NCBI RefSeq assembly: GCF_963675165.1
Contig: NC_087377.1
Coordinates: 6,403,122 to 6,467,121, forward strand
From: Halichondria panicea
Lineage: Eukaryota > Porifera > Demospongiae > Suberitida > Halichondriidae
DNA length: 64,000 nt
Direction: 5' to 3'
Below, in pieces: positions 1 through 45,056 of the stretch (the first letter of the stretch is position 1; each line of letters begins with the position of its first letter). The position numbers and the translations under genes are program-made. Under the pieces are notes generated by a model, which saw only the letters and a program-made list of their open reading frames with translations, had not been told where the DNA came from and ran no database searches.

Positions 1-3000
1 ATTGGTAATCCGTAAAGTGGATGCGGTGGCTCCTTCGATCTCTCCATCAGGACCAAACCACTGGTAGCTCAGTCCCTCTCCGGTTGCCACCACACTGAGC
101 GTGGCATTCCCACCCCGCTCAACGTCCACATTCTCTGGTTGGGTCCCAATCACGGGGGCTTCGCCTGAAACCGACATGCACACGAGTAATAATACCTGAG
201 CCGAACAAATACGCATGTTTCAATTAATCTCACCGATAGACAGGGTTGCAGCATCAGAGATGACTGATCCCGCACTGTTGGTCACAACGACTGTGTAGTC
301 TCCAGCATCGCCAGACTCAACATTGATGATTTGCAGGGTGGATGAATTGGATCCTTCGATGTCTCCGTCAACGTCAGTGAGAGCGTCCCCGCCAGGACCA
401 AACCACTGGTAGCTCAACAGTCCTTCACCAGAGGCTTCCACGGTGAATGTGGCAGTCCCACCCGCTTCCGCAGCATTCACATCGCTCGGCTGTACGTCAA
501 TTGCAGGACCTGTACACAAAGGCAAGTAAAGCATGAACATGCACGCCCGCCACACAGACACAAACTGAGCCGTAAGAATATAGGCATGTTTTAAATCTCA
601 CCAATAGACAGACTTGCAGCATCAGAGGTGACTGATCCCGCACTGTTGGTCACAACGACCGTGTAGTCTCCCGCATCGCCAGGCTCAGCGTTGAAAACTG
701 TCAACGTTCCTGAAGTGGACCCCTCAATCTCTCCGTCACTGTCAGTCAGAGCCACTCCGCCAGGACCAAACCACTGGTAGGTCAGTCCTGCACCAGAGGC
801 CTCCACGGTGAATGAGGCACTTCCGCCTTGCTCGACACCCACACTCTCTGGTTGGGTCTCAATTTCAGGGGCTACATAGAGTGAGTAGTGAAACGATCAG
901 CACTGAACTCAGCATTGCTTGTTTGGCACGAACAATGGAAGGGATTCACCACCGAGTCGACCATAATCAACTGGACCGCTCACCCACTTTTTAGAGGCTC
1001 AACGTGCTATGCTGCTATCAGCGGTGCACACACATGCAGTTACGTTGAGGAGGATCGAGCTTAGTTTACACTCTATAATTGTAGTTTACACGGCCATGAC
1101 GTACGTACTACGATAAACACAAACAAGGGGAACGACACTTTCACCATAATATACTAAAAAGTTTAACGCATGCTGCCCACACGCACTCAATTCGGTACGA
1201 ACTCAAGAAACGGCTCGGCCAGGGTGAATATACATTTACCTGTGGTTGTGATTGTAATGGTTGACGTGAAACCAGCTCCATCCGCTGGATCGGTTGCACT
1301 GATGACAATGGTCTGGCTTCCTGAAGCTCCAGCGACAGACACAAAGAACGGGAATTGTCCACCTGCATGCAAACAGAAACAATGCGTCAATCACACGAGA
1401 CCAACAAACGATGGATGAATTAAGGCATGCAGCAGAGACACCAAAACTCACATCCTTCTGTTACTGATGAATCATTGAAGCTGCACTCAAAGTCCAAGCC
1501 GTCGAGGTCCCTACTTGACGTGCAGCTCACACTCACTTGCTGAGACTCAGCGAGGAACTCGGCACTGCAGTTCAGGATCAGAGGAGCAAGTGTGGGACCT
1601 TGGGTAGGTTGAGCTGCATGTGTGGAATGGGGAACGTTTGACTAGCACACACTGACTATTATTATATCCTTCCGAAAACCACACGTATAATTACACATGC
1701 ACTAGCAAGAATAATTATAATTGCACTTGAACCGGAAAAATAGGCATGTTTCAATCTCTCACCAATAGACAGAGTTGCAGCATCAGAGACGACTGATCCC
1801 GCACTGTTGGTCACAACGACTGTGTAATCTCCAGCATCTCCAGACTCAGCATTGATAATTTGCAGGGTGGATGAATTGGATCCTTCGATGTCTCCGTCGA
1901 CGTCAGTGAGAGCGTTCCCGCCAGGACCAAACCACTGGTAGCTCAATCCTTCACCAGAGGCTTCCACGGTGAGTGTGGCAGTTCCACCCGCTTCCGCATT
2001 CACATCGCTCGGTTGTACGTCAATTGCAGGACCTGTACACAAAGACGAGTAAAGCATGGACATGCCCGCCACACATGCAGACACAAATCAGATGAACTCA
2101 CCGACGGAGAGTGAGACAGTGTCAGAATCGACAATTCCTCCATTGACAGTTGTAATTCGCACTCTATAGTCGCCAGCGTCATCTGGTCCAGCATTGGTAA
2201 TCCGTAAAGTGGATGCGGTGGCTCCTTCGATCTCTCCATCAGGACCAAACCACTGGTAGCTCAGTCCCTCTCCGGTTGCCACCACACTGAGCGTGGCATT
2301 CCCACCCCGCTCAACGTCCACATTCTCTGGTTGGGTCCCAATCACGGGGGCTTCGCCTGAAACCGACATGCACACGAGTAATAATACCTGAGCCGAACAA
2401 ATACGCATGTTTCAATTAATCTCACCGATAGACAGGGTTGCAGCATCAGAGATGACTGATCCCGCACTGTTGGTCACAACGACTGTGTAGTCTCCAGCAT
2501 CGCCAGACTCAACATTGATGATTTGCAGGGTGGATGAATTGGATCCTTCGATGTCTCCGTCAACGTTAGTGAGAGCGTCCCCGCCAGGACCAAACCACTG
2601 GTAGCTCAACAGTCCTTCACCAGAGGCGTCCACGGTGAATGTGGCAGTCCCACCCGCTTCCGCAGCATTCACATCGCTCGGCTGTACGTCAATTGCAGGA
2701 CCTGCACACAAAGGCAAGTAAAGCATGAACATGCACGCCCGCCACACAGACACAAACTGAGCCGTAAGAATATAGGCATGTTTCAAATCTCACCAATAGA
2801 CAGACTTGCAGCATCAGAGGTGACTGATCCCGCACTGTTGGTCACAACGACCGTGTAGTCTCCCGCATCGCCAGGCTCAGCGTTGAAAACTGTCAACGTT
2901 CCTGAAGTGGACCCCTCAATCTCTCCGTCACTGTCAGTCAGAGCCACTCCGCCAGGACCAAACCACTGGTAGGTCAGTCCTGCACCAGAGGCCTCCACGG

Positions 3001-5613: not shown

Positions 5614-8600
5614 CTGCATGAGCAAGAAAGTGTAACTAACAATCATGACATTACAAGTAACGTACATTCAGCGATGAGAATGAAGCTAGATGAAAACAGA
5701 GCACCAGATGTAGGGGGTAGAAAAGGTGGACCAGAAAAGTCAGTACGGATCCTACGAACTTGAAACGCCTCCAGGCTCTCTGTGATATTGTCTGGATAGA
5801 GTGTAAATTCAAAGTCTACCGTCTGATCGTCCGGACCAAATACTAGCAGGACAGTATTCTCCCCTTGAGCTGATATAGAGTAGTCATTGTTACTAACACT
5901 TCCATCTCCATTCAATGTAGATATCGTGGCTGGTGAAATACTGGCATTTGGTGTGTTAGAGCTGGCTTCAATAGTAACAAGGAAGGTCTGTTCTGATATG
6001 CGCCCATCTTGCTTTTCAAGAGTAACAGTGACGTTCCGTGCCTCCTGAGGCTCAACAAAGGTGTATGATGCATTCTCAAACCCAATACGTATATCTGTAA
6101 TGGTAATTAAAGCCTCACAAACAATATTTAACATAAATGTTACAAACCATCGTCATCTTGAATGATGCAGAGTGATGAGCGTCTGCCTGAACTCTCGTCA
6201 TTGCTTCCTTGAACTGAGACAACAAGTATGAACACTTCCTCATCAGCTTCATCGAATTCATCATTTACGATAGGTATTTGGACGTCAACATCATTTTTCT
6301 GGGATCCGTCCTCGTCAGCCTCTACAGTTACAGCAATTGCATCTGGTGAGAAGTCTTGAAGGCTCTCAGGAAAACCTAAAAAGAGAATTCAAAAATAGTC
6401 ACTGATCATAACGAGTGTTGCAAACTGCGCTGTGCTAATGCCTCTCACCATGTTTTGCTTTCGTTCAAAAGTATCAGAGTGTTGGAAGAAAGTGTGTATA
6501 ATTATCTAACTGAGAATAACTGAGAAGAAAAGACTTGCATCTATTGTATTATAATTGACTTGTGTACATCCATCAGTGTTTTGTGGCTTCCAGACCTGAA
6601 GTATTTTGCCAGGATCTGGGGTTCAAAATTGCCAGAGGAGGTAGGACATGCATCACGTGCGCCTCAATTAATTAACAATCCAGGTTTAACAGCAAAAATT
6701 TGGACAAGGATTTGTGCATGAAAAGTAAGGATCTTCAAGCAGCCAAAACAGCAGCAATCCCAGGGTAATTTTCTCTAAAATTTAGCTATCATGTAGTGAA
6801 AGGATAGCAGTACTAACTTGTGGATTAGCAATCCCAGTGGGATCCCGGCTCAATAGCTTGAAATTCACCATCAAACCTACTGTACATAAGCTACTACGGA
6901 GAGCAGTCTATGGAGATTCATTCCATTGCCATGTGATTGATGACACATGTCCCACCTCCTCTGGCTAGCTGTTTAACAGCTCTTTTTCTGACTCTTGTAG
7001 CTATTAAACAAAAAGCTAGCGCTTCAGTGCAAGGCTGTGTTGAATAGAAAGTTTGTGCGAACAGATGATGCTATGAAAGATTCTAAAGAGACTGCAACAG
7101 CCTTCACTGTATAAAGTAAAATTAGCCATTAAACTACCGGTAGAAAACAAAGCTTTAGTTTGCAAATCCACGAATCAAAATCCAAGAGAACTTGGCAAGC
7201 CTATAGAAGCTGTTAGTTTTCATCGCATAGCAACCGTTGAGCAGTTATGGCTGAAATATGGAATACACACACACACACGTAGACGTACGTCTAGACATAG
7301 ACACACACACAGTCAGCTTTACAGTATCCCTCGAGGCATAATAACAAAAACTTACATCTAGCACGATTCGGAGAGTATGGATTGTCATCATCTGGGATAC
7401 CATCAGGTATTGGTTGACCCAATCTGATAGCATCTTCGACAGCGTACGGGGTCAGCAGTGCAGTAACCCTATTGGCCAGTCTTAAGTTCTTCCTGATGGT
7501 AACTTCTATAAATCCAGTTCTCTCAGAAGCACTGTAATCGTTTTCTTCCAACTCAAAGTTTACAACTAAAGAGAAAGTATGGTTTTCAAAAACAAGCAAG
7601 TAGCTATATAATAGCGTCGATTCTAGGCCGCAGGGAAGCAGCTTGGTATACTTTGCATGCACATGCATGCAAAGTATATTTCACAAATTTCACGATACAA
7701 ATTGTATAAACAGATTCACACAGATTATTTCAAACAGAACAAGGGTAACCTCAGATCAAACTCACATAATCTTGCATTTAGATACTCCTACTTTGTTATT
7801 GCCACCCATGTGTATGGAATAGGTTACCAACTTCAGTTGTGCAATCAACGGGGGACCTACCTTTAAACAATTTATTAGGTCACCTGTCATATTATATCCT
7901 TTTAATCCCAGTATTAAATCTTTTTTCCCCCCTCTTAGTTCTGTTTGTTTTGTTCGTTGTGTGCGTGTATATGTTTTGGGAAGCACCTAGATAGGATTAC
8001 CTTTTGTGCGACGCGTTCCATGCATGTATATGTATTGGATAATTATTTCACAAAGGAAGAATTTTTGTTGATCTATGGTGGTAAAATGTTCATGTTGAAT
8101 AATTGTGCTGCAGCAGTGTTGCATCTTCTAGCTCTGTTTAGCAAAGACTTTAAGAGGAGACCTTCCTGGCAGCTCTAGCTGTAGTTAGTAAGAGTGATGG
8201 ACTCTTCTTACACATTATTTTGTAGAGGTTGAATGAATAACTTCCTGAGTGTCGAGTCTAAAAGCTTTTAGGAGGATCGTTATATAGCTCTTTATCTTCA
8301 GAAATAACTTCTTGTCAAACATAAAAGGTAGCGCATAATTATTTGAAAGGCCATATCCAAAATTTGGTAGCAGATAGATCGACTTGCCTGGTCCGTAATC
8401 AAGGAACAATAAAGGGCGTAAACCAAAGCAGGACTCAGTTATCTTTGCACAATACTTATGTAGTGAGTGTACTAACTTCAGATTACAAAATAGTGTATAA
8501 TACTGTACCAGGCCGCTCCTCCGAGTTTCGAGGGCGGCCTGGAATCGAATGTATTCAGCACGTACAATATTTCATTTGTGATAGCTCACCGTCACTGTCT

Positions 8601-11600
8601 ATAATCACAACTGTTAGACTGTTTAGAAACAATGCGTTGGGAGATGGTGGGGTGGATATTAGAGTCAGCTCAAACAGGAGCGTTTCATCATCCTCTGCAG
8701 CAATACTGTCAGCTCTCAGAGTGAACTGGTAGATAGCATTCCTAGTTGTAAATACTCTAAATCTAGGATTTCCCAAAGAGTAGTCTCTGGTGGGACCTGC
8801 ATATATAGCAGGTGGGAAATTGTTGTGACTTTGCTTGTCACACATCAAATTAACATACTTGCAGTTCCAGCAGGGTCTACTGCAACGTTTCCTAGAAGGA
8901 TGGTAGTGGTGGTACTAGGACGCTTCAGATATCCAATCTCAATCTCATAAGCAGAAAAACGCTCAGGTAGAACAAGACGATTCTCCAGGAATCCATACAC
9001 TACATACAGCAAAAATAACTCGTTCCTTAGAAAATTGATCAGAGTAAATAAACATACCTATACAATCAAAGCATTGGTCCGATGTTGTGTATGATAGTGC
9101 CTCTGTATTGACACAGCACTCTCTTCTCTCAATCTCTTCTGAACCCGTAGCTCCCAGCCCAATAGTGTCACCAGAACATTGGTAGTCAAGAAAACACCCA
9201 CGGATAAAGCTAGGATCTGCAGAAATATATACATCATAATTTACGAATTAGCAATACTGATTGAAACTTGTTTCTTTTCATGTATAATTATGGGCATGGT
9301 GACTTTATCCCGAGACACGTGGTGGTTGCGGGTTTTAGTAGTTGGACAAGGACAGTGTATTTGCTTGTTATAATTTGTGTGTCACGGTATTCTGAGCCTG
9401 CATTCCCACCTGGATGTCAAAGTACTGTGTTCTTACAGCATGGATATGCAGCCTCAACATAACTAAAACTTTTAGTTGTATAACTGCGAGCAAAAGCTAA
9501 GAAGCTTAAGCTTGGGTGTGGTTTCCTGGCATTGAAACGCGAATATTAGACCCATAAAATTTTCTGCTGAGGGCTCTGGAGCCAGAACACGTACCACAGC
9601 AGTAATGATATTCTCAAAGCCTTACCAGAGCTTAGGGCATAATAATTATATTATGTACATGAGGTTTATATTTCAAAAACACGTATTTTAATCGGCCTGC
9701 ATTCGAGGCTAGATCTTTTAAAATACTCTTCTGCACTTTTTCTGCAATTTTATAGATCTACAACTACCGACGATTAATTTTAAGCAATTTGTGCTCTTTG
9801 TTTCATACTGTAGGTGACAAATATAGGTGTCTCTACAACAAACAAAAGGTTTAATCTCTCTTACTAAAATAATGGTTTAAAGCCTGACTAATTTATTGTA
9901 GCCAAACTATGTCGCCTATTATCTCATCATGTCCTACAGTATAAAAGCTATATTAATTTTGTCAATTAAGAAACTTACTGAACGTCAAAAAGGCACGATC
10001 AGAAATGACAGATCCATCAGAGTTTGACACTACACAACTATAGCCTCCAGCATTACTCAGTTGCACATTTAAGATCTGCAGAGTGGGTGTATTTGACCCT
10101 TCAATCTCTCCAGCTTGGTCTGAAAGGGGCTCTCCATCCGGGCCAAACCACTCGTAGCTCAATCCTTCACCAGAGGCTTCCACGGTGAATGTCGCAGTTC
10201 CACCCACTTCCGCATTCACATCGCTCGGTTGTACGTCAATTGCAGGACCTGTACACAAAGACGAGTAAAGCATGGACATGCCCGCCACACATGCATGCAG
10301 ACACAAATCAGATAAACTCACCGACGGAAAGTGAGACAATGTCAGAATCAATAATTCCTCCATTGGCAGTTGTAATTCGCACTCTATACTCTCCAGCGGC
10401 ATCTGATCCAGAGTTGATAATCCGTAGAGTGGATGTGGTGGCTCCTTCAATCGCCCCATCACTATCGAAGAGTGGTTCTCCATCAGGACCAAACCACTGG
10501 TAGCTCAGTCCCTCTCCGGTTGCCACCACACTGAGCGTGGCATTCCCACCCCCTTCAACGTTCACATTCTCTGGTTGAGTCCCAATCACGGGACTTTCAC
10601 CTGAAAACGCCATACAAGCAAGTAATAAACTTGAATGGTGAAAGTACGCAGCTCACCAATAGATAGAGTTGCTGCATCAGAGACGACTGATCCCGCACTG
10701 TTGGTCACAACGACTGTGTAATCTCCAGCATCGCCAGACTCAACATCGATAATTTGCAGGGTGGATGAATTGGATCCTTCGATGTCTCCGTCGACGTCAG
10801 TGAGAGCGTTCCCGCCAGGACCAAACCACTGGTAGCTCAATCCTTCACCAGAGGCTTCCACGGTGAGTGTGGCAGTTCCACCCGCTTCCGCATTCACATC
10901 GCTCGGTTGTACGTCAATTGCAGGACCTGTACACAAAGACGAGTAAAGCATGGACATGCCCGCCACACATGCAGACACAAATCAGATGAACTCACCGACG
11001 GAAAGTGAGACAGTGTCAGAATCGACAATTCCTCTATTGACAGTTGTAATTCGCACTCTATAGTCGCCAGCGTCATCTGGTCCAGCATTGGTAATCTGTA
11101 AAGTGGATGCGGTGGCTCCTTCAATCTCTCCATCAGGACCAAACCACTGGTAGCTCAGTCCCTCTCCGGTTGCCACCACACTGAGCGTGGCATTCCCACC
11201 CCGCTCAACGTCCACATTCTCTGGTTGGGTCCCAATCACGGGGGCTTCGCCTGAAACCGACATGCACACGAGTAATAATGCCTGAGCCGCATGTTTCAAT
11301 TAATCTCACCGATAGACAGGGTTGCAGCATCAGAGGTGACTGATCCCGCACTGTTGGTCACAACGACTGTGTAGTCTCCAGCATCGCCAGGCTCAGCGTT
11401 GAAAACAGTCAACGTTCCTGAAGTGGACCCCTCAATCTCTCCGTCACTGTCAGTCAGAGCCACTCCGCCAGGACCAAACCACTGGTAGGTCAGTCCTGCA
11501 CCAGAGGCCTCCACGGTGAATGAGGCACTTCCGCCTTGCTCGACACCCACACTCTCTGGTTGGGTCTCAATTTCAGGGGCTACATAGAGTGAGTAATGAA

Positions 11601-32600: not shown

Positions 32601-35600
32601 GCTTTAGTTTGCAAATCCACAAATCAAAATCCAAGAGAACTTGGCAAGCCTATAGAAGCTGTTAGTTTTCATCGCATAGCAACCGTTGAGCAGTTATGGC
32701 TGGAATATGGAATACACACACACACACGTAGACGTACGTCTAGACATAGACACACACACAGTCAGCTTTACAGTATCCCTCGAGGCATAATAACAAAAAC
32801 TTACATCTAGCACGATTCGGAGAGTATGGATTGTCATCATCTGGAATACCATCAGGTATTGGTTGACCCAATCTGATAGCATCTTCGACAACGTACGGAG
32901 TCAGCAGTGCAGTAACCCTATTGGCCAGTCTTAAGTTCTTCCTGATGGTAACTTCTATAAATCCAGTTCTCTCAGAAGCACTGTAATCGTTTTCTTCCAA
33001 CTCAAAGTTTACAACTGAATGAAGAGAAAGTATGGTTTTCAAAAACAAGCAAGTAGCTATATAATAGCGTTGATTCTAGGCCGCAGGGAGCAGCTTGGTA
33101 TACTTTGCATGCATGTGTATGCAAAGTATATTTCACAAATTTCACGATACAAATTGTAAATAAACAGATTCACGCAGATTATTTCAAACAGAACAAGGGT
33201 AACCTCAGATCAAACTCACATAATCTTGCATTTAGATACTCCTACTTTGTTATTGCCACCCATGTGTATGGAATAGGTTACCAACTTCAGTTGTGCAATC
33301 AACGGGGGACCTACCTTTAAACAATTTATTAGGTCACCTGTCATATTATATCCTTTTAATCCCAGTATTAAATCTTTTTTCCCCCCTCTTAGTTCTGTTT
33401 GTTTTGTTCGTTGTGTGCGTGTATATGTTTTGGGAAGCACCTAGATAGGATTACCTTTTGTGCGACGCGTTCCATGCATGTATATGTATTGGATAATTAT
33501 TTCACAAAGGAAGAATTTTTGTTGATCTATGTGGTAAAATGTTCATGTTGAATAATTGTGCTGCAGCAGTGTTGCATCTTCTAGCTCTGTTTAGCAAAGA
33601 CTTTAAGAGGAGACCTTCCTGGCAGCTCTAGCTGTAGTTAGTAAGAGTGATGGACTCTTCTTACACATTATTTTGTAGAGGTTGAATGAATAACTTCCTG
33701 AGTGTCGAGTCTAAAAGCTTTTAGGAGGATCGTTATATAGCTCTTTATCTTCAGAAATAACTTCTTGTCAAACATAAAAGGTAGCGCATAATTATTTGAA
33801 AGGCCATAACTTTAGTTCCAAAATTTGGTAGTAGATAGATTGACTTGCCTGGTCCATAATCACAGGGGACCAGCAGGAACAAGAAAGGGCGTAAACCAAA
33901 GCAGGACTCAGTTATCTTTGCACAATACTTATGTAATGAGTGTACTAACTTCAGATTACAAAATAGTAGTGTATAATACTGTACCAGGCCGCTCCTCCGA
34001 GTTTCGAGGGCGGCCTGGAATCGAATGTATTCAGCACGTACAATATTTCATTTGTGATAGCTCACCGTCACTGTCTATAATCACAACTGTTAGACTGTTT
34101 AGAAACAATGCGTTGGGTGGTGGGGTGGATGTTAGAGTCAGCTCAAACAGGAGCGTTTCATCATCCTCTGCAGCAATACTGTCAGCTCTCAGAGTGAACT
34201 GGTAGATAGCATTCCTAGTTGTAAATACTCTAAATCTAGGATTTCCCAAAGAGTAGTCTCTGGTGGGACCTGCATATATAGCAGGTGGGAAATTGTTGTG
34301 ACTTTGCTTGTCACACATCAAATTAATTTTAACATACTTGCAGTTCCAGCAGGGTCTACTGCAACGTTTCCTAGAAGGATGGTAGTGGTGGTACTAGGAC
34401 GCTTCAGATATCCAATCTCAATCTCATAAGCAGATAAACGCTCAGGTAGAACAAGACGATTCTCCAGGAATCCATACACTATATACAGCAAAAATAACTC
34501 GTTCCTTAGAAAATTGATCAGAGTAAATAAACATACCTATACAATCAAAGCATTGGTCCGATGTTGTGTATGATAGTGCCTCTGTATTGACACAGCACTC
34601 TCTTCTCTCAATCTCTTCTGAACCCGTAGCTCCCAGCCCAATAGTGTCACCAGAACATTGGTAGTCAAGAAAACACCCACGGATAAAGCTAGGATCTGCA
34701 GAAATATATACATCATAATTTACGAATTAGCAATACCGATTGAAACTTGTTTCTTTTCATGTATAATTATGGGCATGGTGACTTTAACCCGAGACACGTG
34801 GTGGTTGCGGGTTTTAGTAGTTGGACAAGGACAGTGTATTTGCTTGTTATAATTTGTGTGTCACGGTATTCTGAGCCTGCATTCCCACCTGGATGTCAAA
34901 GTACTGTGTTCTTACAGCATGGATATGCAGCCTCAACATAACTAGTTGTATAACTGCGAGCAAAAGCTAAGAAGCTCAAGCTTGGGTGTGGTTTCCTGGC
35001 ATTGAAACGCAAATATTAAACCCATAAATTTTCTGCTGAGGGCTCTGGAGCCAGAACACGTACCACAGCAGTAATGATATTCTCAAAGCCTTACCAGAGC
35101 TTAGGGCATAATAATTATATTATGTACATGAGATTTGTATTTCAAAAACACGTATTTTAATCAGCCTGCATTCGAGGCTAGATCTTTTAAAATACTCTTC
35201 TGCACTTTTTCTGCAATTTTATAGATCTACAACTACCGACGATTAATTTTAAGCAATTTGTGCTCTTTGTTTCATACTGTAGGTGACAAATATAGGTGTC
35301 TCTACAACAAACAAAAGGTTTAATCTCTCTTACTAAAATAATGGTTTAAAGCCTGACTAATTTATTGTAGCCAAACTATGTTGCCTATTATCTCATCATG
35401 TCCTACAGTATAAAAGCTATATTAATTTTGTTAATTAAGAAACTTACTGAACGTCAAAAAGGCACGATCAGAAATGACAGATCCATCAGAGTTTGACACT
35501 ACACAACTATAGCCTCCAGCATTACTCAGTTGCACATTTAAGATCTGCAGAGTGGCTGTATTTGACCCTTCAATCTCTCCAGCTTGGTCTGAAAGGGGCT

Positions 35601-38600
35601 CTCCATCCGGGCCAAACCACTCGTAGCTCAATCCTTCACCAGAGGCTTCCACGGTGAATGTCGCAGTTCCACCCACTTCCGCATTCACATCGCTCGGTTG
35701 TACATCAATTGCAGGACCTGTACACAAAGACGAGTAAAGCATGGACATGCCCGCCACACATGCAGACACAAATCAGATAAACTCACCGACGGAAAGTGAG
35801 ACAATGTCAGAATCGATAATTCCTCCATTGGCTGTTGTAATTCGCACACTATATTCTCCAGCGGCATCTGATCCAGCGTTGATAATCCGTAGAGTAGATG
35901 TGGTGGCTCCTTCAATCACCCCATCACTGTCGAAGAGTGGTTCTCCATCAGGACCAAACCACTGGTAGCTCAGTCCCTCTCCGGTTGCCACCACACTGAG
36001 CGTGGCATTCCCACCCCGCTCAACGTCCACATTCTCTGGTTGGGTCTCAATCACGGGACTTTCACCTGAAAATGCCATACAAGCAAGTAATAAACTAGAA
36101 TGGTGAAAGTACGCAGCTCACCAATAGATAGAGTTGCTGCATCAGAATCGACTGATCCCGCATTATTGGTCACGACGACTGTGTAGTCTCCAGCATCGCC
36201 AGACTCAACATTGATAATTTGCAGAGTGGGTGAATTGGATCCATTGATGTCTCCGTCAACGTCAGTGAGAGCGTTCCCGCCAGGACCATACCACTGGTAG
36301 CTCAACCCTTCACCAGAAGCTTCTACGGTGAATGTGACACTTCCACCTGCTTCTGCATTCACATCGCTTGGTTGTACGTCAATTGCAGGACCTGTTAACA
36401 AAGACAAGTGAAGCATGGACATGTCAGTAAAATAAACAAATTAGATGAACTCACCAACGAAAAGTGCAACAATGTCAGAATCAACAATTCCTCCATTGGC
36501 ATTTGTGATTCGCACTCTATAGTCTCCAGCGTCATCTGGTCCAGCATTGATAATCCGTAAAGTGGACGTGGTAGCTCCTTCAATCTCTCCATCACTGTCA
36601 GAGAGAGGTTCTCCATCAGGACCAAACCACTGGTAGCTCAGTCCCTCTCCGGTTGCCACAACACTGAATGTGGTATTTCCATCCCGCTCAACTTCCACAT
36701 TCTCTGGTTGGGTCTCAATCACGGGACTTTCACCTGAAACCCATCATGCAAGCAAGTAAAACTAGAGTGGTGAAAGTATGCATCTCACCAATAGATAGAG
36801 TTGCTGCATCGGAGTCGACTGATCCTGCACTGTTGGTCACGACGACTGTGTAGTCTCCAGCATCGCCAGACTCAACATTGATGATTTGGAGGGTGGATGA
36901 ATTCGATCCTTCGATGTCTCCGTCAACGTCAGTAAGAGCGTTCCCGCCAGGACCAAACCACTGGTAGCTCAACAATCCTTCACCAGAGGCTTCCACAGTG
37001 AATGTGACAGTTCCACCCGCTTCCGCATTCACATCGCTTGGTTGTACGTCAATTGCAGGACCTATACACAAAGACAAGTAAAGTTTCATGCCCGCCACGC
37101 ATGCAGACACAAATCAATTGAACTCACCGACGGAAAGTGAGACAATGTCAGAATCGACAATTCCTCCATTGGCAGTTGTAATTCGCACTCTATAGTCTCC
37201 AGCGTCATCTGGTCCAGCATTGATAATCCGTAAAGTGGACGTGGTAGCTCCTTCAATCTCTCCATCACTGTCAGAGAGAGGTTCTCCATCAGGACCAAAC
37301 CACTGGTAGCTCAGTCCCTCTCCGGTTGCCACAACACTGAATGTGGTATTTCCATCCCGCTCAACTTCCACATTCTCTGGTTGAGTCTCAATCACGGGAC
37401 TTTCACCTGAAACCCATCATGCAAGCAAGTAAAACTAGAGTGGTGAAAGTATGCATCTCACCAATAGATAGAGTTGCTGCATCGGAGTCGACTGATCCTG
37501 CACTGTTGGTCACGATGACTGTATAGTCTCCAGCATCGCCAGACTCAACATTGATGATTTGCAGGGTGGATGAATTCGATCCTTCGATATGTCCGTCAAC
37601 GTCAGTAAGAGTGTTCCCGCCAGGACCAAACCACTGGTAGCTCAACAATCCTTCACCAGAGGCTTCCACAGTGAATGTGGCAGTTCCACCCGCTTCCGCA
37701 TTCACATCGCTTGGTTGTACGTCAATTGCAGGAGCTGTACACAAAGACAAGTAAAGCTTCATGCCCGCCACGCATGCAGACACAAATCAAATGAACTCAC
37801 CGACGGAAAGTGAGACAATGTCAGAATCGACAATCCCTCCATTGGAAGTTGTAATTCGCACTCTATAGTCTCCAGCGTCATCTGGTCCAGCATTGATAAT
37901 CTGTAAAGTGGATGCGGTGGCTCCATCAATCGCCCCATCACTGTTAGAGAGTGGTTCTCCGTCAGGACCAAACCACTGGTAGCTCAGTCCTTCTCCGGTT
38001 GCCACAACACTGAGCGTGGCATTCCCACCCCCCTCAACGTTCACATTCTCTGGTTGGGTCCCAATCACGGGACTTTCACCTGAAAACGCCATACAAGCAA
38101 GTAATAAACTTGAATGGTGAAAGTACGCAGCTCACCAATAGATAGAGTTGCTGCATCAGAGTCGACCGATCCCGCATTATTGGTCACGACGACCGTGTAG
38201 TCTCCAGCATCGCCAGACTCAACATTGATAATTTGCAGAGTGGGTGAATTAGATCCATTGATGTCTCCATCAACGTCAGTGAGAGCGTTCCCGCCAGGAC
38301 CAAACCACTGGTAGCTCAATCCTTCACCAGAGGCTTCCACGGTGAGTGTGGCAGTTCCGCCCGCTTCCGCATTCACATCGCTCGGTTGTACGTCAATTGC
38401 AGGACCTGTACACAAAGACGAGTAAAGCATGGACATGCCCGCCACACATGCAGACACAAATCAGATGAACTCACCGACGGAAAGTGAGACAGTGTCAGAA
38501 TCGACAATTCCTCCATTGACAGTTGTAATTCGCACTCTATAGTCGCCAGCGTCATCTGGTCCAGCATTGGTAATCCGTAAAGTGGATGCGGTGGCTCCTT

Positions 38601-41600
38601 CGATCTCTCCATCAGGACCAAACCACTGGTAGCTCAGTCCCTCTCCGGTTGCCACCACACTGAGCGTGGCATTCCCACCCCGCTCAACGTCCACATTCTC
38701 TGGTTGGGTCCCAATCACGGGGGCTTCGCCTGAAACTGACATGCACACGAGTAATAATACCTGAGCCGAACAAATACGCATGTTTCAATTAATCTCACCG
38801 ATAGACAGGGTTGCAGCATCAGAGATGACTGATCCCGCACTGTTGGTCACAACGACTGTGTAGTCTCCAACATCGCCAGACTCAACATTAATGATTTGCA
38901 GGGTGGATGAATTGGATCCTTCGATGTCTCCGTCAACGTCAGTGAGAGCGTCCCCGCCAGGACCAAACCACTGGTAGCTCAACAGTCCTTCACCAGAGGC
39001 TTCCACGATGAATGTTGCAGTTCCACCCGCTTCCGCATTCACATCGCTCGGTTGTACGTCAATTGCAGGACCTGTACACAAAGGCAAGTAAAGCATGAAC
39101 ATGCATGCCCGCCACACAGACACAAACTGAGCCGTAAAAATATAGGCATGTTTAAAATCTCACCAATAGACAGACTTGCAGCATCAGAGGTGACTGATCC
39201 CGCACTGTTGGTCACAACGACCGTGTAGTTTCCCGCATCGTCAGGCTCAGCGTTGAAAACTGTCAACGTTCCTGAAGTGGACCCCTCAATCTCTCCGTCA
39301 CTGTCAGTCAGAGCCACTCCGTCAGGACCAAACCACAGGTAGGTCAGTCCTGCACCAGAGGCCTCCACGGTGAATGAGGCACTTCCGCCTTGCTCGACAC
39401 CCACACTTTCTGGTTGGGTCTCAATTTCAGGGGCTACATAGAGTGAGTAGTAAAACGATCAGCACTGTGAACCCAGCATTATTTTTTTGGCACGAAAGGG
39501 ATTCCCACCACCGAGTCTACCAATATCCAATAATCAACTGGATCGACTGCTCACCCACTTTTTAGAGGTTCAAGAAAAACTAATGTGCTATGCTGCTTTC
39601 AGCTGTGCACATACATGCAGTTACGTTGAGGAGGATCGAGCTTAGTTTACACTCTATAATTGTAGTTTACATGCCCATGACGTAGTACTACGATAAACAC
39701 AAACAAGGGGAACGACACTTTCACTATACTAAAAAGTTTAACACATGCCCACACGCACTCAATTTGGTACAAACTCAAGAAACGGCTCGGCCAGGGTGAA
39801 TATACATTTACCTGTGGTTGTGATTGTAATGGTTGACGTGAAACCAGCTCCATCCGCTGGATCGGTTGCACTGATGACAATGGTCTGGCTTCCTGAAGCT
39901 CCAGTGATAGACACAAAGAACATGAATTGTCCACCTGCAAACAGAATCAATGCGTCAATCACACGAGACCAACAAACGATGGATGAAGGCATGCAGCAGA
40001 GACACCAAAACTCACATCCTTCTGTTACTGATTGATCATTGAAGCTGCACTCAAAGTCTAAGCCGTCGAGGTCCCTACTTGACGTGCAGCTCACACTCAC
40101 TTGCTGAGACTCAGCGAGGAACTCGGCACTGCAGTTCAGGATCAGAGGAGTAAGTGTGGGACCTTGGGTAGGTTGAGCTGCATGTGTGGAATGGGGAACG
40201 TTTGACTAGCACACTGACTATTATTATATCCTTCCGAAAACCACACGTATAATTACACATGCACTAGCAAGAATAATTATAATTGCACTTGAACCATAAA
40301 AATAGGCATGTTTCAATCTCTCACCAATAGACAGAGTTGCAGCATCAGAGACGACTGATCCCGTACTGTTGGTCACAACGACCGTGTAATCTCCAGCATC
40401 GCCAGACTCAACATTGATAATTTGCAGGGTGGATGAATTGGATCCTTCGATGTTTCCGTCGACATCAGTGAGAGCGTTCCCGCCAGGACCAAACCACTGG
40501 TAGCTCAATCCTTCACCAGAGGCTTTCACGGTGAATGTAGCATTTCCACCAACTCCAACTTCTATATCACTAGGCTGACTTGTAATGACTGGTGGTTGAG
40601 TAGCTGCAGCTGCACCAGAAAACGATCTTGATATAGCTAGGAGGTTACATCTAGAACTTACCAATGTATAATATGGCCTCTTCAGAATCTACTGATCCAC
40701 CAAGATTGGACGCACGGACACTGTAGTTTCCAGCATCACCAGACTGAGCAAAAACGATCTGCAAAGTAGTTGTAGTGGATCCCTCAATCCTTCCATTACT
40801 GTCTGTGAGAGCCCCTCCATTGGCACCAAACCATTGGTAGGTCAGTCCTGCACCAGAGGCTTCCACGGTGAATGTGGCATTGGCACCAATAGTAACTCTA
40901 ACACTGATTGGCTGTCTTGTAATTACTGGTTCAGTGACTGTAGCAAAGCAGATTGTGAAGCATCAAGCACTATCGCACACCACTTATCTTTTTGACTCAC
41001 CTATAGTTAGCGTGGCCTCCTCAGAATCCACTGACCCACCAATATTGGATACAAGAACTGTGTAGTTTCCAGCATCACCAGATTGAGCAGCAACTATCTG
41101 CAATGTAGCTGCAGTGGATCCTTCAATCCTTCCATCACTGTCTGTGAGAGACTCTCCGTCAGGACCAAACCATTGGTAGGTCAGTCCTTCACCAAATGCC
41201 TCCACCGTAAATGTGGCAGTTGAACCTGCAGCAGCTTCAACATCGTTTGGCTGTCTTGTAATTACGGGTGGATCAACTGTGGAAGAACAATCATAATTAT
41301 ATCGACTCTGTTCACCATTATTGATGAAACGTCAATCAAAGGGCAGTATATCATCGCACCATATAAATATATACAACATACCTATGGTTAGCGTGACCTC
41401 CTCAGAATCCACTAATCCAGCAACATTGGATACACTAACTCCGTAGTTTCCAGCATCACCAGACTGAGCATCAACGATCCGCAATGTGTCTGTAATAGAT
41501 CCCTCAATCTCACCGGTGTTGTCGGTCAGAGCTTCTCCGTCGAGGCCATACCACTGGTAGCTCAGTCCTTCACCAGAAGCCTCCACAATAAATGTGGCAG

Positions 41601-44600
41601 TTGAACCAGCAGCAACTTCAACATTGCTTGGTTGCCTTGTAATTTCAGGTGGAGAGACTGAAAGAATAAAAAATCAAAAAATGAATGTCATGGAGGTTAT
41701 CTCTGTTCAACTTCACCAATTGTCAAAGTTGCTTCATTTGAAAATATGTATCCGCCAGTAGCGAACACTTGAACACGGTAGTTTCCAACATCATCTGATT
41801 GAGCACTGACAATCCGCAAGGTAGCTGTAGTGGATCCCTCAATATCTCCTTCACTGTCCGTGAGAGCTTCACCATTAGGACCAAACCACTGGTAGCTCAG
41901 ATCTGTCCCAGAGGCCACAACAGAAAACGTGGAGGTTCCACCAGTGGCCACTCCACTACTTCTTGGCTGGTTAACAATGAACACTGCATGAGCAAGAAAG
42001 TGTAACTAACAATCATGACATTACAAGTAACGTACATTCAGCGATGAGAATGAAGCTAGATGAAAACAGAGCACCAGATGTAGGGGGTAGAAAAGGTGGA
42101 CCAGAAAAGTCAGTACGGATCCTACGAACTTGAAACGCCTCCAGGCTCTCTGTGATATTGTCTGGATAGAGTGTAAATTCAAAGTCTACCGTCTGATCGT
42201 CCGGACCAAATACTAGCAGGACAGTATTCTCCCCTTGAGCTGATATAGAGTAGTCATTGTTACTAACACTTCCATCTCCATTCAATGTAGATATCGTGGC
42301 TGGTGAAATACTGGCATTTGGTGTGTTAGAGCTGGCTTCAATAGTAACCAGGAAGGTCTGTTCTGATATGCGTCCATCTTGCTTTTCAAGGGTAACAGTG
42401 ACGTTCTTTGTCTTTTGAGGCTCAATGAAGGTGTAAGATGCATTTAGGAACCCAATACGAATATCTGCATAGAATTAGTCTCACAAGCTTACAATCACCG
42501 AAGATGACTTACCATCATTATCCTGTATAATACAAAGGGATGTTTGCCTCTGTAGCCGAGCAGTGTTGGTGTCAGCTACAAGACTGTTGTTATCGACTGT
42601 CAGAACAATGATAAAAACTTCCTCATCAGCTTCATCAAAGATATCATCAAAGACACGCACAGGAACTAGAATATCGTTTTTCTGACTTCCACTCTCATCA
42701 GCTTCGAATATTACAGGAACAACATCTGGTGAAAAGTCGCGACGATCTTCAGGGACAGCTGTAAGAAAACAAAATGAAGTGGTACAACCACTTACATCAC
42801 ACACTACTTACATCTTGCATAGTTTTGCAATAGATTGTCTTCGGTTGGGATATCATCTGGTAAAGGTTGCCGGGATTCAATTGCCACTGAGATACTATAC
42901 GGTGTCAGCAACAGAGTCACAGGATTGGCCAGGCGAACGTTCTTGTTAATTGTTGCAACGATGAAACCATCATCTTCCGCACCACTGTAGTCATTCTCAT
43001 TCAGCTCGAACGTGACAACTATATTATTAAGAATGCAGATAAACAAAATGCAAAAAATCCAGTAAGAAAACCTACCAGTTCGATCTTGAATGGCAACAGT
43101 GATAGTGTTCACAAAAAAGCCAGGTGGAGACGCTCCAATAGGCTGAAGCTCCAGCCCAAAAGTTTCATCAGATTCTTGAGCAATATTGTCAAAATTGAGA
43201 GAAATGGAGATGACTGCAGGAGCACCAACTCGTGCAATGTAAGTGTTTCTGAGTAACCGGTAGTCACTTTGAGGGGCTGGAAGACAACCAAACAAAGATG
43301 TCAATCACCAACTACAAAAATACCAAAAAGCTTACTTGCAGTCCCTCCAACTTCAGTGATACGTCCTCTAATTAATGCAGATGTGCCACCCCCTTCCTTT
43401 CTGTATCCAATTTGTATATTGTAAAGCTGAGTTCTTTCTGGTGCTTCAAAGAGATCCTCCAGAAAACCATAAACTAACACATCACATTGATGAATATTGA
43501 ACCATAGAATATACGTATCATACGCATCATAAAATTAATCTTTAATGATCATCATACGTAGTGAACATACCGACACACTGTACACATTGTCCAGAGAGAC
43601 TATACGACAGTGCTGGGGTATTGACACAGCACTCTCTAGTTTCAATCTCCTCTGTTCCAATATCTCGCAGTGCAACAGTCTCACCAGCACAGGTAGCACT
43701 GACATAGCAGCCATTGAGGATGACAGGATCTACGAATTGATTGAAACAATGTTGCTTATTAGCAAACTGCTTAATTGCTGTGCCAGTGCCATCTGTTCGT
43801 ACAAACATGTTAATTTTGTGTTGACTACCGTAAATTTAGCAGATCAAATAACTATTTTACTGCACGGCTGCTCAAATTAAAAACATTTCACGCATTGCAG
43901 ATAGAGGTCAACGAATAAGTCACAGTATCAGAAGTAATTAAAACACTGATTCCATGTTCTCATGCCACCATTGAGTCAATTATCCACGAATTTTTTGAAC
44001 ATTGATTTTGACGCAAAAAAAAAAGTTGGAAGCAGCTCTGAACAGTGGCAGTAAAATGAATAGTAGTTAGGATACCACCAAAAAAAACCATTAACATCTG
44101 TTGTGGTATCATATCTGTTGCAGCACAGGCTAGTATGGGTTCTGCTTACATAATTCACTCACCAAGAAGTTGTGGAGGACAGAAATCTGGACTAGGAGAC
44201 TGTTCAGAAAAAGACCGGGTAATAAGGATCACATTATAGTTGAAACATAATATCTTACCAGATCTAGTCCTCGCAGTTGAGTATGGAATATAGAAAACAC
44301 TCTCGTGACAGAGAACCTATAAAAACATACGGACTTAGTTTACTTAGCATCCTTTATATTCGATCCTACCAAAAAGTGACACCAATAGGTGTTGGTGGAG
44401 CAACCCAGTCGAAGCACACTTCAGTTTTATCGGATCTATCCGTGTGTGTCACTCCCTGGTGTTAATAAATTAATTATTGTGGTAAGAACTATGATTTCAT
44501 GAGCTCACTGCAATAGGACAGTCCCACTGTTGAACAGTGGAAGTAGGCAGATTGATAAACTCTCCAACACTGATTTGCTCAGGAGACACTGAGAACTCAG

Positions 44601-45056
44601 TAGTGGACTCCCGAGGCTGGACAACAAATCCTCTGAACTGAGCCCCAGCACTTGCTCTCAGGCAAACTATGGAACGATAGAGGTAGTGTCATTATCACAT
44701 AGAGCTATGTACATCCTATAGCTACATGCATGCGTGCTGTTAAAGTATTAACAATCCCAATGAGACCATGCTGGAGAATAAAATAGTTTACGTCTGTGCA
44801 CAGCTCCACATCTGTAGAAGTTTTCTTGTCCTGCTAGCACCTGGCCACTATCAATGGAATCAACAATCAGGCTGAATTCACAAGAAGCAGGTAGGCACGG
44901 CTGTGCTACATTCTCGAGATGTTGTGGAGTCAAGTCACTGCACACACTTGGATATAAATCTAAATTTGTTGGAGCACCATCAGGTAGGCCTGAAACTAGG
45001 TTAATGCTATAGCTGCTTAGCAGAGCAGCTGAAACGAATAGCAAACAAATCACCAT
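1..45056 (-). CDS. Giant Reeler / Calx-beta / Ig-repeat secreted protein gene (partial, 3' end off window)
   Basis: Seen: 99 coding exons can be chained on the minus strand from an ATG at 45056 to the left edge with consensus GT-AG boundaries and no in-frame stop. All junctions are phase 1 except one phase-0 junction between the exons at 44509-44666 and 44163-44199. Domain order is signal peptide, Reeler, then three rounds of cysteine-rich module + three Calx-beta-like domains + Ig-like array. Summed coding length is about 23.6 kb (about 7,900 residues). No transmembrane segment lies in annotated exons. Known: Reeler, Calx-beta and Ig domains are extracellular adhesion/matrix modules, and Calx-beta domains bind calcium in several families. 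Inferred: a calcium-dependent secreted adhesion or recognition protein. Whether this is one gene or three tandem genes is unsettled: only the first round has a visible signal peptide and start, and I found no terminal exon between rounds, which favours one gene. Near-identical repeats also make assembly error possible. Confidence 0.75.
164..4240 (-). repeat. 2.19-kb tandem repeat (two copies)
   Basis: Exons at 234, 602, 1240 and 1452 recur at 2426, 2794, 3432 and 3644, offset 2,192 bp, with introns included. Cassette order is PEIET Ig, A2 Ig, B Ig, A Ig, C-domain; the same cassette is embedded in the 6.38-kb repeat. Confidence 0.9.
5666..9216 (-). CDS. Calx block 3: cysteine-rich module and three Calx-beta-like domains
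   Basis: Exons 9058-9216 (cysteine-rich module), 8859-8999 plus 8590-8796 (domain 1), 7356-7565 plus 6148-6375 (domain 2) and 5666-6094 (domain 3). All borders are phase 1. Upstream of about 5979 the sequence follows block 2 almost exactly; downstream of about 5965 it follows block 1, so the last exon is a recombinant. Domain 1 has one more codon than in block 2 (extra Ser/Pro near TSTPP). The intron 6376-7355 lacks the about 570-bp insertion present in block 2. Confidence 0.8.
6376..7355. other. Calx block 3 intron with transposon-derived sequence
   Basis: No exon seen. About 6540-7345 resembles the interior and 3' end of the GCCTCGGTG-family element (shared AAGCTTTAGTTTGCAAATCC stretch, CA run and a terminal CGAGGCATAA). 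Equivalent sequence lies at about 31990-32787 in block 2. Confidence 0.6.
9979..13557 (-). CDS. Ig array 2, 6.38-kb repeat copy 3 (incomplete) and array end
   Basis: Exons 13159-13557 (follistatin-like + Ig), 12994-13083 (miniature Ig), 12467-12895 (follistatin-like + Ig), 12156-12317 and 11948-12070 (C-domain), 11310-11579 (PEIET-type with A2-like end), 10996-11250 (B Ig), then 10657-10926 (A Ig followed by a different intron), 10322-10600 (B-type Ig) and 9979-10248 (the distinctive last Ig with GGYSCVVSN). The repeat is left around 10.9 kb, after which the sequence follows the end of Ig array 1 (35448-36065) instead. All borders are phase 1. Confidence 0.84.
12994..13083 (-). CDS. Miniature Ig exon, copy 3
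   Basis: Same 90-bp internally deleted Ig exon, in 6.38-kb repeat copy 3. Splice borders and frame intact. Confidence 0.58.
13558..15158. other. Long intron of the 6.38-kb repeat (copies at 19937-21540 and 26319-27919)
   Basis: No coding exon supported. It holds a GTAGGGGTAGTAGG-rich stretch (about 13742-13780), a diverged member of the GCCTCGGTG-ended element family (about 14870-15095) with a CA run, and a segment (13684-13745) resembling the Calx-block intron at 6418-6482. Confidence 0.7.
15159..19936 (-). CDS. Ig array 2, 6.38-kb repeat copy 2 (exons)
   Basis: Same thirteen exons as copy 1, each 6,382 bp to the left: 19538-19936, 19373-19462, 18846-19274, 18535-18696, 18327-18449, 17689-17958, 17375-17629, 17036-17305, 16725-16886, 16513-16635, 15875-16144, 15507-15782, 15159-15437. 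No exon is broken. Observed differences from copy 1 are scattered single bases plus one 3-bp intron indel near 20510 (explaining 6,382 versus 6,379 bp spacing). Confidence 0.85.
19373..19462 (-). CDS. Miniature Ig exon, copy 2
   Basis: Same 90-bp internally deleted Ig exon as at 25755-25844, with intact splice borders and frame; part of 6.38-kb repeat copy 2. Confidence 0.58.
21541..26318 (-). CDS. Ig array 2, 6.38-kb repeat copy 1 (exons)
   Basis: Exons in transcription order: 25920-26318 (follistatin-like + Ig), 25755-25844 (miniature Ig), 25228-25656 (follistatin-like + Ig), 24917-25078 and 24709-24831 (C-domain), 24071-24340 (PEIET-type Ig with an A2-like end), 23757-24011 (B Ig), 23418-23687 (A Ig), 23107-23268 and 22895-23017 (C-domain), 22257-22526 (PEIET Ig), 21889-22164 (A2 Ig) and 21541-21819 (B' Ig). 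All are phase 1-1 and total 3,108 bp of coding per repeat. It is nearly identical to copies 2 and 3, so this is recent or gene-converted sequence. Confidence 0.85.
25228..25656 (-). CDS. Follistatin-like + Ig fused exon (FOLN-Ig1), copy 1
   Basis: A 429-bp phase 1-1 exon opening with DDPCAAFDCALGYEC and a second cysteine pair (FCQRIRLC), then an Ig domain whose C strand reads LCYQWFGP, so an extra cysteine sits beside the core tryptophan. The 3' half is nearly identical to the A-type Ig exons, showing a conversion or crossover inside the exon. Copies at 18846-19274 and 12467-12895. Confidence 0.7.
25755..25844 (-). CDS. Miniature (internally deleted) Ig exon, copy 1
   Basis: A 90-bp exon with acceptor tgtag and donor GTGAG kept. 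It starts like the PEIET-type Ig (ATELDEQTGNASFSVEASGA) and ends like the G strand (ASDADIYIS), with the middle of the Ig fold (C to F strands) missing. Length is 30 codons and phase is 1-1, so splicing it in would not shift the frame. It cannot form a complete Ig fold. Confidence 0.6.
25920..26318 (-). CDS. Follistatin-like + Ig fused exon (FOLN-Ig2), copy 1
   Basis: A 399-bp phase 1-1 exon. Residues about 3-35 have the follistatin N-type spacing C-x4-C-x5-C...C-x-C-x3-C (CAVVDCVFGHEC, then FCKCNRDC), followed after a short cysteine-containing linker by an Ig domain starting LPVIEVQPSD. Copies at 19538-19936 and 13159-13557. Known: FOLN modules precede Kazal/EF-hand domains in SPARC and follistatin; fusion directly to an Ig in one exon is unusual. 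Confidence 0.7.
27920..30394 (-). CDS. Ig array 2, leading segment
   Basis: Exons 30140-30394 (B-type Ig), 29797-30066 (A-type Ig), 29486-29647 and 29274-29396 (C-domain), 28636-28905 (PEIETQPESV Ig), 28268-28543 (A2-type Ig, with the extra LLSYQW residue) and 27920-28198 (B'-type Ig with EPLSDSDG). All have phase-1 borders. This segment is the same order of cassettes as in the 2.19-kb and 6.38-kb repeats. The acceptor of the exon at 28636-28905 has a base change relative to other copies (reads agggcct rather than aggggct on the plus strand), which changes the first residue from Ala to Gly but keeps the AG. Confidence 0.85.
30544..34695 (-). CDS. Calx block 2: cysteine-rich module and three Calx-beta-like domains
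   Basis: Exons 34537-34695 (cysteine-rich module, CCVNTEALSY core), 34338-34478 plus 34066-34269 (domain 1; acidic turn AAEDDETLLFELTL), 32805-33014 plus 31026-31253 (domain 2; DEADEEVFILVV, closing IQDDDG) and 30544-30972 (domain 3). Exon borders are phase 1, and block order and exon sizes match blocks 1 and 3. The intron at 31254-32804 carries an inserted repeat element absent from the block 3 copy. No signal peptide or promoter-like start precedes the cysteine-rich exon; it joins in frame to the last Ig exon of array 1, so I treat it as internal to the same gene. Confidence 0.8.
30870..36065 (-). repeat. Long duplication matching 5980-10600 (about 25-kb spacing)
   Basis: Calx block 2 and the end of Ig array 1 match Calx block 3 and the end of Ig array 2, including introns (for example 33216 with 7762, 34658 with 9179, 35448 with 9979). 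Interrupted by one element insertion near 31406-31973 and small indels. Confidence 0.9.
31406..31973. mobile_element. About 570-bp MITE-like element, GCCTCGGTG family (Calx block 2 intron)
   Basis: Present in the Calx block 2 intron but absent from the otherwise matching block 3 intron (empty site at 6527/6528), so it inserted after the block duplicated, or was lost from the other copy. Ends ATGAAAGCACCGCGG and CACCGAGGCATAA. Confidence 0.8.
35448..39433 (-). CDS. Ig array 1, twelve homogenised Ig-like exons
   Basis: Exons 39164-39433, 38799-39071, 38475-38729, 38136-38405, 37801-38079, 37462-37734, 37128-37406, 36789-37061, 36455-36733, 36122-36391, 35787-36065 and 35448-35717. All are phase 1-1 (85-93 codons) with introns of roughly 65-70 bp for most pairs. 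Two main flavours alternate: A type (PAIDVQPSDVNAEAGG) and B type (PVIGTQPENVDVE or PVIETQPENVEVE), repeating about every 673 bp. The core YQWFGP and DAGDY motifs are kept. The last exon differs: its F strand has a cysteine (GGYSCVVSN) and it ends TFSK. The sequon NSS in IEGSNSSTLQ is a repeated potential N-glycosylation site. Confidence 0.87.
35787..38729 (-). repeat. About 673-bp tandem repeat of two-exon Ig pairs
   Basis: B-type plus A-type exon pairs start at 35787, 36455, 37128, 37801 and 38475 (steps 668, 673, 673, 674). The pairs at 36455 and 37128 are nearly identical including introns, so this is the smallest clear duplication scale in the locus. Confidence 0.88.
39812..40177 (-). 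CDS. Two-exon unrecognised beta-rich domain (C-domain), copy in array 1
   Basis: Exons 40016-40177 and 39812-39934. The joined product is about 95 residues: a first half with LILNCSAEFLAES and a second cysteine cluster (SCTSSRDL, FECSFN), then a second half ending in GASGSQTIVISATD and the threonine-rich STITITTT. Both exons are multiples of three with phase-1 borders, so the pair behaves as another shufflable cassette. I do not recognise the family. It resembles bacterial and invertebrate Ig/FN3-like or cadherin-like beta-sandwich tails only in composition. Nine copies occur in the window, always between an A-type Ig exon and the Ig exon starting APEIETQPESV. Confidence 0.7.
40325..41983 (-). 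CDS. Ig array 1, first five Ig-like exons (divergent set)
   Basis: Single-exon Ig-like domains at 41717-41983, 41382-41657, 41001-41276, 40662-40937 and 40325-40609 (an alternative acceptor gives 40603). Each is phase 1-1 and 89-95 codons long. Seen in each: a QP-containing A strand, the core tryptophan in YQWFG or YQWYG, a DGxIEGS turn and a DAGNY or DVGNY F strand followed by N or A at the G-strand turn. The canonical B- and F-strand cysteines are absent. These five are distinct from each other in sequence, unlike the homogenised exons further downstream, and are repeated almost base for base 36,370 bp away in Ig array 3. Confidence 0.85.
42036..43729 (-). CDS. Calx block 1: cysteine-rich module and three Calx-beta-like domains
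   Basis: Exons 43571-43729 (53-residue cysteine-rich module with the CCVNTPALSY core), 43336-43473 plus 43076-43276 (Calx-beta-like domain 1), 42812-43018 plus 42513-42758 (domain 2) and 42036-42464 (domain 3). Every exon is a multiple of three with phase-1 borders. Calx-beta features seen: SDY or RDFSPD strands, acidic turns such as DEADEEVFIIVL and ESDETFGLEL, and closing strands ending IQDNDG or IQDRTG. The acidic residues at those turns are the usual calcium ligands of the fold. This is the most diverged of the three blocks in its 5' two thirds, while its 3' portion (42036 to about 42350) is almost identical to block 3. Role inferred: extracellular calcium-binding spacer ahead of the Ig array. 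Confidence 0.8.
44163..45056 (-). CDS. Signal peptide and Reeler domain exons (exons 1-3)
   Basis: Exons 44792-45056, 44509-44666 and 44163-44199. The open frame extends upstream to 45089 but only through a TTG; the first ATG is at 45056 in a good context (A at -3, G at +4) and is followed at once by a hydrophobic signal segment (MVICLLFVSAALLSS). The mature part matches the Reeler pattern: GLPDGAP near the start, VCSDLTPQH, a spaced C...C pair, and the diagnostic FRGFVVQPRE after the splice to the second exon. A short linker (SPSPDFCPPQLL) in the third exon leads to the cysteine-rich module. Known: Reeler domains occur at the N-terminus of secreted matrix and defence proteins such as reelin, spondin and insect defense proteins. 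Exon 1 ends in phase 1, exon 2 in phase 0, exon 3 in phase 1, and the frame is kept throughout. Confidence 0.82.

Follow-up and report, generated by a model that had tools for sequence, protein, structure and literature searches.

The genes of self-recognition in sponges are still few and debated. The aggregation factor genes, which are reportedly the subject of Grice et al. in 2017, form a family characterized by Calx-beta domains and by Wreath, VWA or VWD domains. Aggregation factors have roles in both adhesion and allorecognition (PMC10815962, accessible part), and sponge genes for Reeler, Calx-beta and Ig proteins are described, as separate genes, to change with microbial cues (PMC6208332, accessible part). 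In the limited open literature, no paper was found on a Reeler/Calx-beta/Ig exon array in sponges. Outside sponges, three systems are relevant for comparison. Exons bounded by phase 1 introns on both sides (class 1-1) are the general rule for the shuffled extracellular modules of animals, including the Ig modules of titin (PMC8001218, available text). The coding VNTR of human LPA consists of kringle IV-2 (KIV-2) units, the exons of which are 98-100% identical to one another (PMC7613587, available text). Finally, in the hypervariable Dscam genes of arthropods (Dscam-hv), adjacent alternative exons encode the same domain and one of them is used (PMC3364881, in the part available).

The locus described here was analyzed in a window of 64,000 nucleotides (C1:6403122-6467121) of a sponge genome of 131 Mb in 39 contigs; negative coordinates denote positions beyond window base 1, such that -29084 corresponds to C1:6374037. 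On the minus strand of the window, 100 complete coding exons (23,575 nt) and one exon that straddles the window edge were modelled, in agreement with the 99 exons and about 24 kb of coding sequence of an earlier interpretation made from the letters alone (hereinafter, the sequence-only reading), and the 57 Ig exons of that count correspond to 56 complete exons plus the one across base 1. Open reading frames of at least 110 codons number 53 on the minus strand of the window, against 7 on its plus strand. The gene end that the sequence-only reading placed at window base 1 was apparent, because the window ends there: the Ig cassettes reach -24137, and beyond them lie tail exons that end in a stop codon near -29084, with AATAAA after it at -29159. 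The gene extends about 29 kb past window base 1 and includes 101 Ig exons altogether.

The gene model comprises 163 exons that were placed by homology, with AG/GT and phase 1 boundaries required, three exons in which Ig is fused to a Cys-rich segment, and five head exons. Among the 163 boundary pairs, 158 lie at the exact position predicted by homology, although 24 of these are the query exons themselves; in the head exons, the first donor and some of the acceptors have poor scores and were chosen by homology to a neighboring gene and by frame. When concatenated, these 171 exons on the minus strand yield a single stop-free open frame of 39,247 nt (~13,080 residues). The addition of about 14 tail exons (~800 residues), the placement of which is less certain than that of the other exons, gives a predicted transcription unit of roughly 74 kb (C1 ~6374037-6448177, minus strand), with an estimated ~185 exons and ~13,900 residues. 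The statements on a single gene, on splicing and on copy number derive from one assembly and a model built by homology. The features of the gene within the window are listed in Table 1.

Table 1. Features of the modelled gene in the window, in the direction of the gene.
Feature	Window positions	Strand	Remarks
Signal peptide and Reeler, five head exons	44163..45056	-	mixed phases; Reeler 53.5 bits
Head exons 1-5	45056-44792, 44666-44509, 44455-44370, 44316-44259, 44199-44163	-	
Round 1 head: Cys-rich H1, H2 and Calx-beta-like exons	42075..43792	-	phase 1-1
Round 1 Ig run, including one mA/mB two-exon minidomain	35448..41983	-	
Round 2 head: H1b, H2b and Calx-beta-like exons	30583..34695	-	homologous to round 1 head
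Round 2 Ig array with tripled 6.38-kb unit	10652..30399	-	self-alignment
Final two Ig exons ahead of round 3 head	9979..10600	-	homology-placed exons
Round 3 head	5705..9216	-	per-exon difference of H1b to C2b from round 2, 0-1.4%
Crossover interval within exon C4 (6094-5705)	5965..5979	-	diagnostic sites
Round 3 Ig run	1..5613	-	extends past the window in 1632-2196-nt units as far as -24137, with the tail after it

Phase 1-1 exons account for 166 of the 171 modelled exons, that is, every exon from the sixth on, whereas the Reeler exons 1-5 have the phases 0-1, 1-0, 0-2, 2-0 and 0-1. The almost uniform phase seen in the sequence-only reading thus holds, but the regularity starts only after exon 5, not after the third exon. 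This regularity is partly built into the model, given that only AG/GT and phase 1 boundaries were accepted at placement. An all-phase splice search in five sampled regions assigned phase 1-1 to 44 of 47 exons, in a setting that penalized the other phases, used signals trained on phase 1-1 exons and yielded some boundaries different from those of the final model. For the same reason, the presence of GT and AG, both required at placement, is no test of the model; among the 166 placed exons, 58 donors read GTGAGT and 56 read GTGAGA. The introns are short, with a median of 89 nt (n = 165). It follows from the phases, as the sequence-only reading proposed, that any of these exons could be lost or duplicated in frame, yet this property is the general rule for extracellular modules of animals (PMC8001218, available text). 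Phase 1-1 allows skipping as well as duplication and is not evidence of splice diversity. The domain-sized exons between phase 1 introns (166 of 171) resemble the class 1-1 Ig modules of titin (PMC8001218, available text), but, unlike in typical class 1-1 shuffling, the copying at this locus is recent enough to leave readable breakpoints and a crossover product.

The Reeler domain (PF02014) noted in the sequence-only reading is firm after splicing: the spliced product aligns with positions 1-130 of 131 at 53.5 bits (cut-off 21). The search of the unspliced genome with this family listed seven matches, none of them inside the window. The Calx-beta domains of the same reading survive as a likeness only, with scores of 16.9 and 21.3 bits, below the curated cut-off of 27, and no locus of the window is among the matches listed in the genome-wide Calx-beta search (150 of 645 candidates scored). 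No Pfam family matches the H1 and H2 exons or the mA/mB minidomain, and the NCBIfam search produced three weak matches, each in one of nine sequences. The hydropathy scan of the tail region reveals five hydrophobic stretches, of which four are located outside the modelled exons or past the stop. The fifth (~-25183 to -25245) overlaps the modelled start of a tail exon (-25229); this start is doubtful because the preceding exon ends at -25227, too close for an intron to fit between them, and a later acceptor at -25322 would leave the hydrophobic stretch out of the tail exon. The protein is probably extracellular and secreted.

Each Ig exon encodes one Ig domain, and a two-domain query scores well above the cut-offs of Ig_3 and I-set (77.8 and 73.4 bits). 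A single-sequence structure model of an Ig exon (pLDDT 72) matches the folds of Ig domains of NCAM, sDscam and titin, with animal Ig entries ranking first; in the sequence search of solved entries, the top two matches are an ‘Immunoglobulin-like domain protein’ and a ‘tail protein’, and titin is third. In 93 of the 101 Ig exons, cysteine is lacking altogether, and with it the B-F strand cysteine pair that is canonical for animal I-set domains. Bacterial Ig loci match at 35-53% identity (best 80 of at least 375 confirmed matches to one pattern). For 13 Ig exon types, identity is 42-53% to the best bacterial matches and 38-49% to more distant Ig exons from the host genome, in a comparison made without animal proteomes, in which the bacterial side is the best 80 of at least 375 matches to a single pattern and the host side consists of three small loci. 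The bacterial domains thus match about as well as the distant host Ig exons, and with sets of this scope a bacterial origin of this Ig type was set aside and no direction is claimed. The Ig exons of the gene and of loci L094-L096 are mostly Cys-less and about as near to bacterial and phage Ig domains as to distant host Ig exons. Related, mostly Cys-less Ig exons are also present in the three small pieces examined of the C1 region at 15.1-16.5 Mb.

The proposal of the sequence-only reading that this is an expanding gene is strongly supported by near-identical repeats, by a crossover within an exon and by cassettes on a second chromosome. The round 2 array consists of Ig exons, Ig exons fused to a Cys-rich segment, a 90-nt Ig-remnant exon and mA/mB minidomains. 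In this array, a 6.38-kb multi-exon unit is present in three copies (self-alignment offsets of 6379 and 12761, with 99.5% and 99.3% identity), and the divergence between successive units is similar in exons and introns (0.2-0.5%). The left array comprises 14 units of 1632-2196 nt, and eight neighboring pairs of these differ by 0-1%. The H1 exons of the round 1 and round 2 heads are 53% identical. Round 3 is the product of an intragenic crossover: in its exon C4, all 30 diagnostic sites of one flank are of the round 1 type and all 16 of the other flank are of the round 2 type, with the round 1 type at lower and the round 2 type at higher coordinates (Table 1). From the crossover through four Ig exons and their introns, round 3 is identical to round 1, which lies 36 kb away. 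Between rounds 3 and 2, exons seemed to have changed more than introns (5.8% vs 2.1%), but this difference was discarded as an artefact of non-equivalent exon pairing. The high values at the end of the alignment (0.107 for intron 7355-6376 and 0.571 for C3b) are taken as alignment-edge artefacts, in the case of C3b because its protein match is 100%. The 90-nt exon, found at 13083-12994, 19462-19373 and 25844-25755, resembles an internally deleted Ig exon with the frame and splice sites kept.

This organization is similar to that of the LPA KIV-2 VNTR, in which near-identical multi-exon units encoding an extracellular module are likewise repeated in frame (PMC7613587, available text). Unlike KIV-2, the sponge array is built of Ig and minidomain cassettes with short introns, includes several array types and has cassettes on a second chromosome as well; its copy-number polymorphism would be an extrapolation from one assembly.

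The cassettes on the second chromosome belong to two paralogous loci of contig C5 (1978001-1998000 and 2054001-2094000) that contain Sushi arrays, C1-type Ig cassettes, an IgGFc-binding exon and Calx-beta exons, with the Ig cassettes located between the Sushi exons and the IgGFc-binding exon. In the larger locus, Sushi and IgGFc-binding score 48.3 and 190.7 bits, respectively. A 99.7% identical counterpart of the chimeric C4 exon is present in this locus too, differing at one of the 46 diagnostic sites (5979), and the exons that surround C4 (H1b to IgT) are 98.9-100% identical to those on C1. The homology between C5 and C1 ends 2 nt downstream of a donor and ~27 nt upstream of an acceptor; the C5 breakpoints are located near 1985312, 1988647, 2062210 and 2080623. 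At the break, the C5 exon runs on into Gly-stop, and therefore a C5 gene may end there. In the tree of 29 mA-to-IgPE blocks, in which 4 of the 24 inner branches are well supported, the C1 and C5 copies are mostly apart.

The tandem neighbor of the gene, located on the same strand (C1:6353424-6372010; window ~-49.7 kb to -31.1 kb), has a Reeler head (exon 1, 44% identical; Reeler, 36.1 bits), a middle part of 27 two-exon minidomain units of 408-412 bp, and a tail that has seven exons in common with the gene (43-85%) and the same end point in the last exon. To judge from sequence comparison, this repetition of the plan of head, expandable array and tail in a shorter gene argues for one gene, not three. 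Three or more separate tandem genes, one per round, would explain why a similar head opens each round and why the introns that precede rounds 2 and 3 are 752 and 762 nt long (compared with the median of 89 nt) and contain three AATAAA/ATTAAA hexamers each. Such a subdivision nevertheless appears rather unlikely. Exon 1, with the signal peptide and Reeler, has three matches genome-wide, namely itself, the neighbor gene and one on contig C4, and no match to it lies in round 2 or round 3; the conserved tail exon is matched twice genome-wide, once within this gene; the frame and phase run unbroken through 171 exons; and the neighbor gene has a single head and a single tail. A diverged alternative first exon may be present at rounds 2 and 3, where the scan for signal-peptide exons was uninformative, both positive controls being negative, and premature polyadenylation in the 752- and 762-nt introns is possible. 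It is quite unlikely that the length of the array is in part an artefact of assembly, whether by spurious expansion or by the joining of haplotypes. Assembly of long tandem arrays with near-identical units is difficult, but there is no N in the window or in four 10-kb pieces to the left of it, the units range from 1632 to 2196 nt and are set apart by discrete changes, and the related C5 arrays carry variants of their own.

The sequence-only reading also saw in the locus a candidate for Dscam-like splice diversity. On such a view, combinatorial or mutually exclusive use of Ig exons in a recognition gene would give many isoforms per animal. Dscam-hv proteins are transmembrane receptors; in the scanned tail region here, the one hydrophobic stretch that touches a modelled exon is that at the doubtful tail-exon start. 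Many tandem Ig-coding exons are indeed shared with arthropod Dscam-hv (PMC3364881, in the part available), and the skipping of any modelled exon after the fifth would leave the reading frame intact. Translation of the 101 Ig exons gives 43 different sequences, which form 18 clusters at 95% identity and, by single linkage, 10 at 80% and 6 at 70%; in the fold search with one Ig exon, the sDscam Ig chains rank 6, 9 and 17, after NCAM. However, by its genomic exon organization the locus does not belong with Dscam: Dscam-hv has side-by-side alternatives of which one is used (PMC3364881, in the part available), whereas here multi-exon cassettes of differing types follow one another in fixed order, with many near-identical copies, short introns and no cluster of alternatives for one domain. 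A Dscam-like mode of exon use is accordingly improbable. Short introns are linked to intron definition, not to exon skipping. Given the fixed order of the cassettes, the 43 distinct proteins among 101 Ig exons and the short introns, the inclusion of exons is most likely to be mainly constitutive. With respect to selection, pN/pS is 0.14-0.46 in Ig comparisons with dS >0.05 and 0.38-0.99 among the closest copies (dS <=0.05), and reaches 3.1, with very few changes, in close copies of the mB exon (40 residues); these pairs are not independent, and one class consists of 3 pairs. Purifying selection fits most of these data and, in the diverged copies, also speaks against Dscam-like splice diversity; local relaxed or diversifying change may have occurred among the closest copies. 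Diversifying selection on the Ig exons was rejected, as it is not seen in the more diverged pairs.

We therefore consider it probable that the locus is a single ~74-kb unit with constitutive splicing that grows and shrinks by germline recombination of cassettes and encodes an adhesion or matrix scaffold. The transcription unit would encode, in succession, a signal peptide, Reeler, three rounds that each consist of a Cys-rich/Calx-beta-like head and an Ig run, a long Ig/minidomain array and a conserved tail. The class 1-1 modules would keep the frame with any number of whole cassettes, and unequal crossing-over and non-allelic copying between near-identical cassettes would cause growth and shrinkage in the germline, with cassettes also being copied between chromosomes. 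Because the exons would be spliced in constitutively, individuals would be expected to differ mainly in cassette number (length alleles); the protein would be likely to function in adhesion or as a matrix scaffold and possibly also in self-recognition. Rather than a splice-diversity system, the locus looks like a VNTR-like array of class 1-1 exons in which exon shuffling is under way. Class 1-1 exon shuffling is credited with the origin of extracellular proteins of animals, mostly from ancient traces, whereas here the steps are recent and readable: tandem growth of cassettes, crossover within an exon, cassettes in unrelated genes of a second chromosome, and breakpoints beside splice sites. For length variation between individuals of a sponge, the gene is also a specific candidate.

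Like the sponge aggregation factor genes, the gene encodes a large extracellular protein with Calx-beta-like exons (16.9 and 21.3 bits; cut-off 27), but differs from them in the presence of Reeler and ~100 Ig domains and in Calx-beta scores below the cut-off. A more far-reaching and unlikely possibility is a sponge allorecognition or aggregation system in which individual diversity would stem from germline cassette dynamics, not from splicing, and in which a common pool of Cys-less, bacterial-type Ig cassettes would circulate among giant extracellular genes on at least two chromosomes; each animal would then have its own length and composition alleles.

Several other loci were noticed in the course of the analysis. 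On the minus strand of the window, a frame for a RIG-I-like helicase (DEAD, Helicase_C and RIG-I C-terminal domain) is located at 56238-58628, and a second, partial one (Helicase_C and RIG-I C-terminal domain) at 63195-63998, at the window edge. A possible Death-domain exon at 58651-59037 scores 16.6 bits (cut-off 22.6). Among seven cysteine-protease-like loci that were looked at, four have silicatein-type exons in which Ser replaces the catalytic Cys, one has the ordinary Cys form and two gave no motif; the Ser form is a mark of siliceous sponges and supports a sponge origin of the assembly. Finally, a dozen tandem Calx-beta exons of very similar score, mostly spaced by ~405 bp, at C2:269229-278225 represent another candidate exon array.
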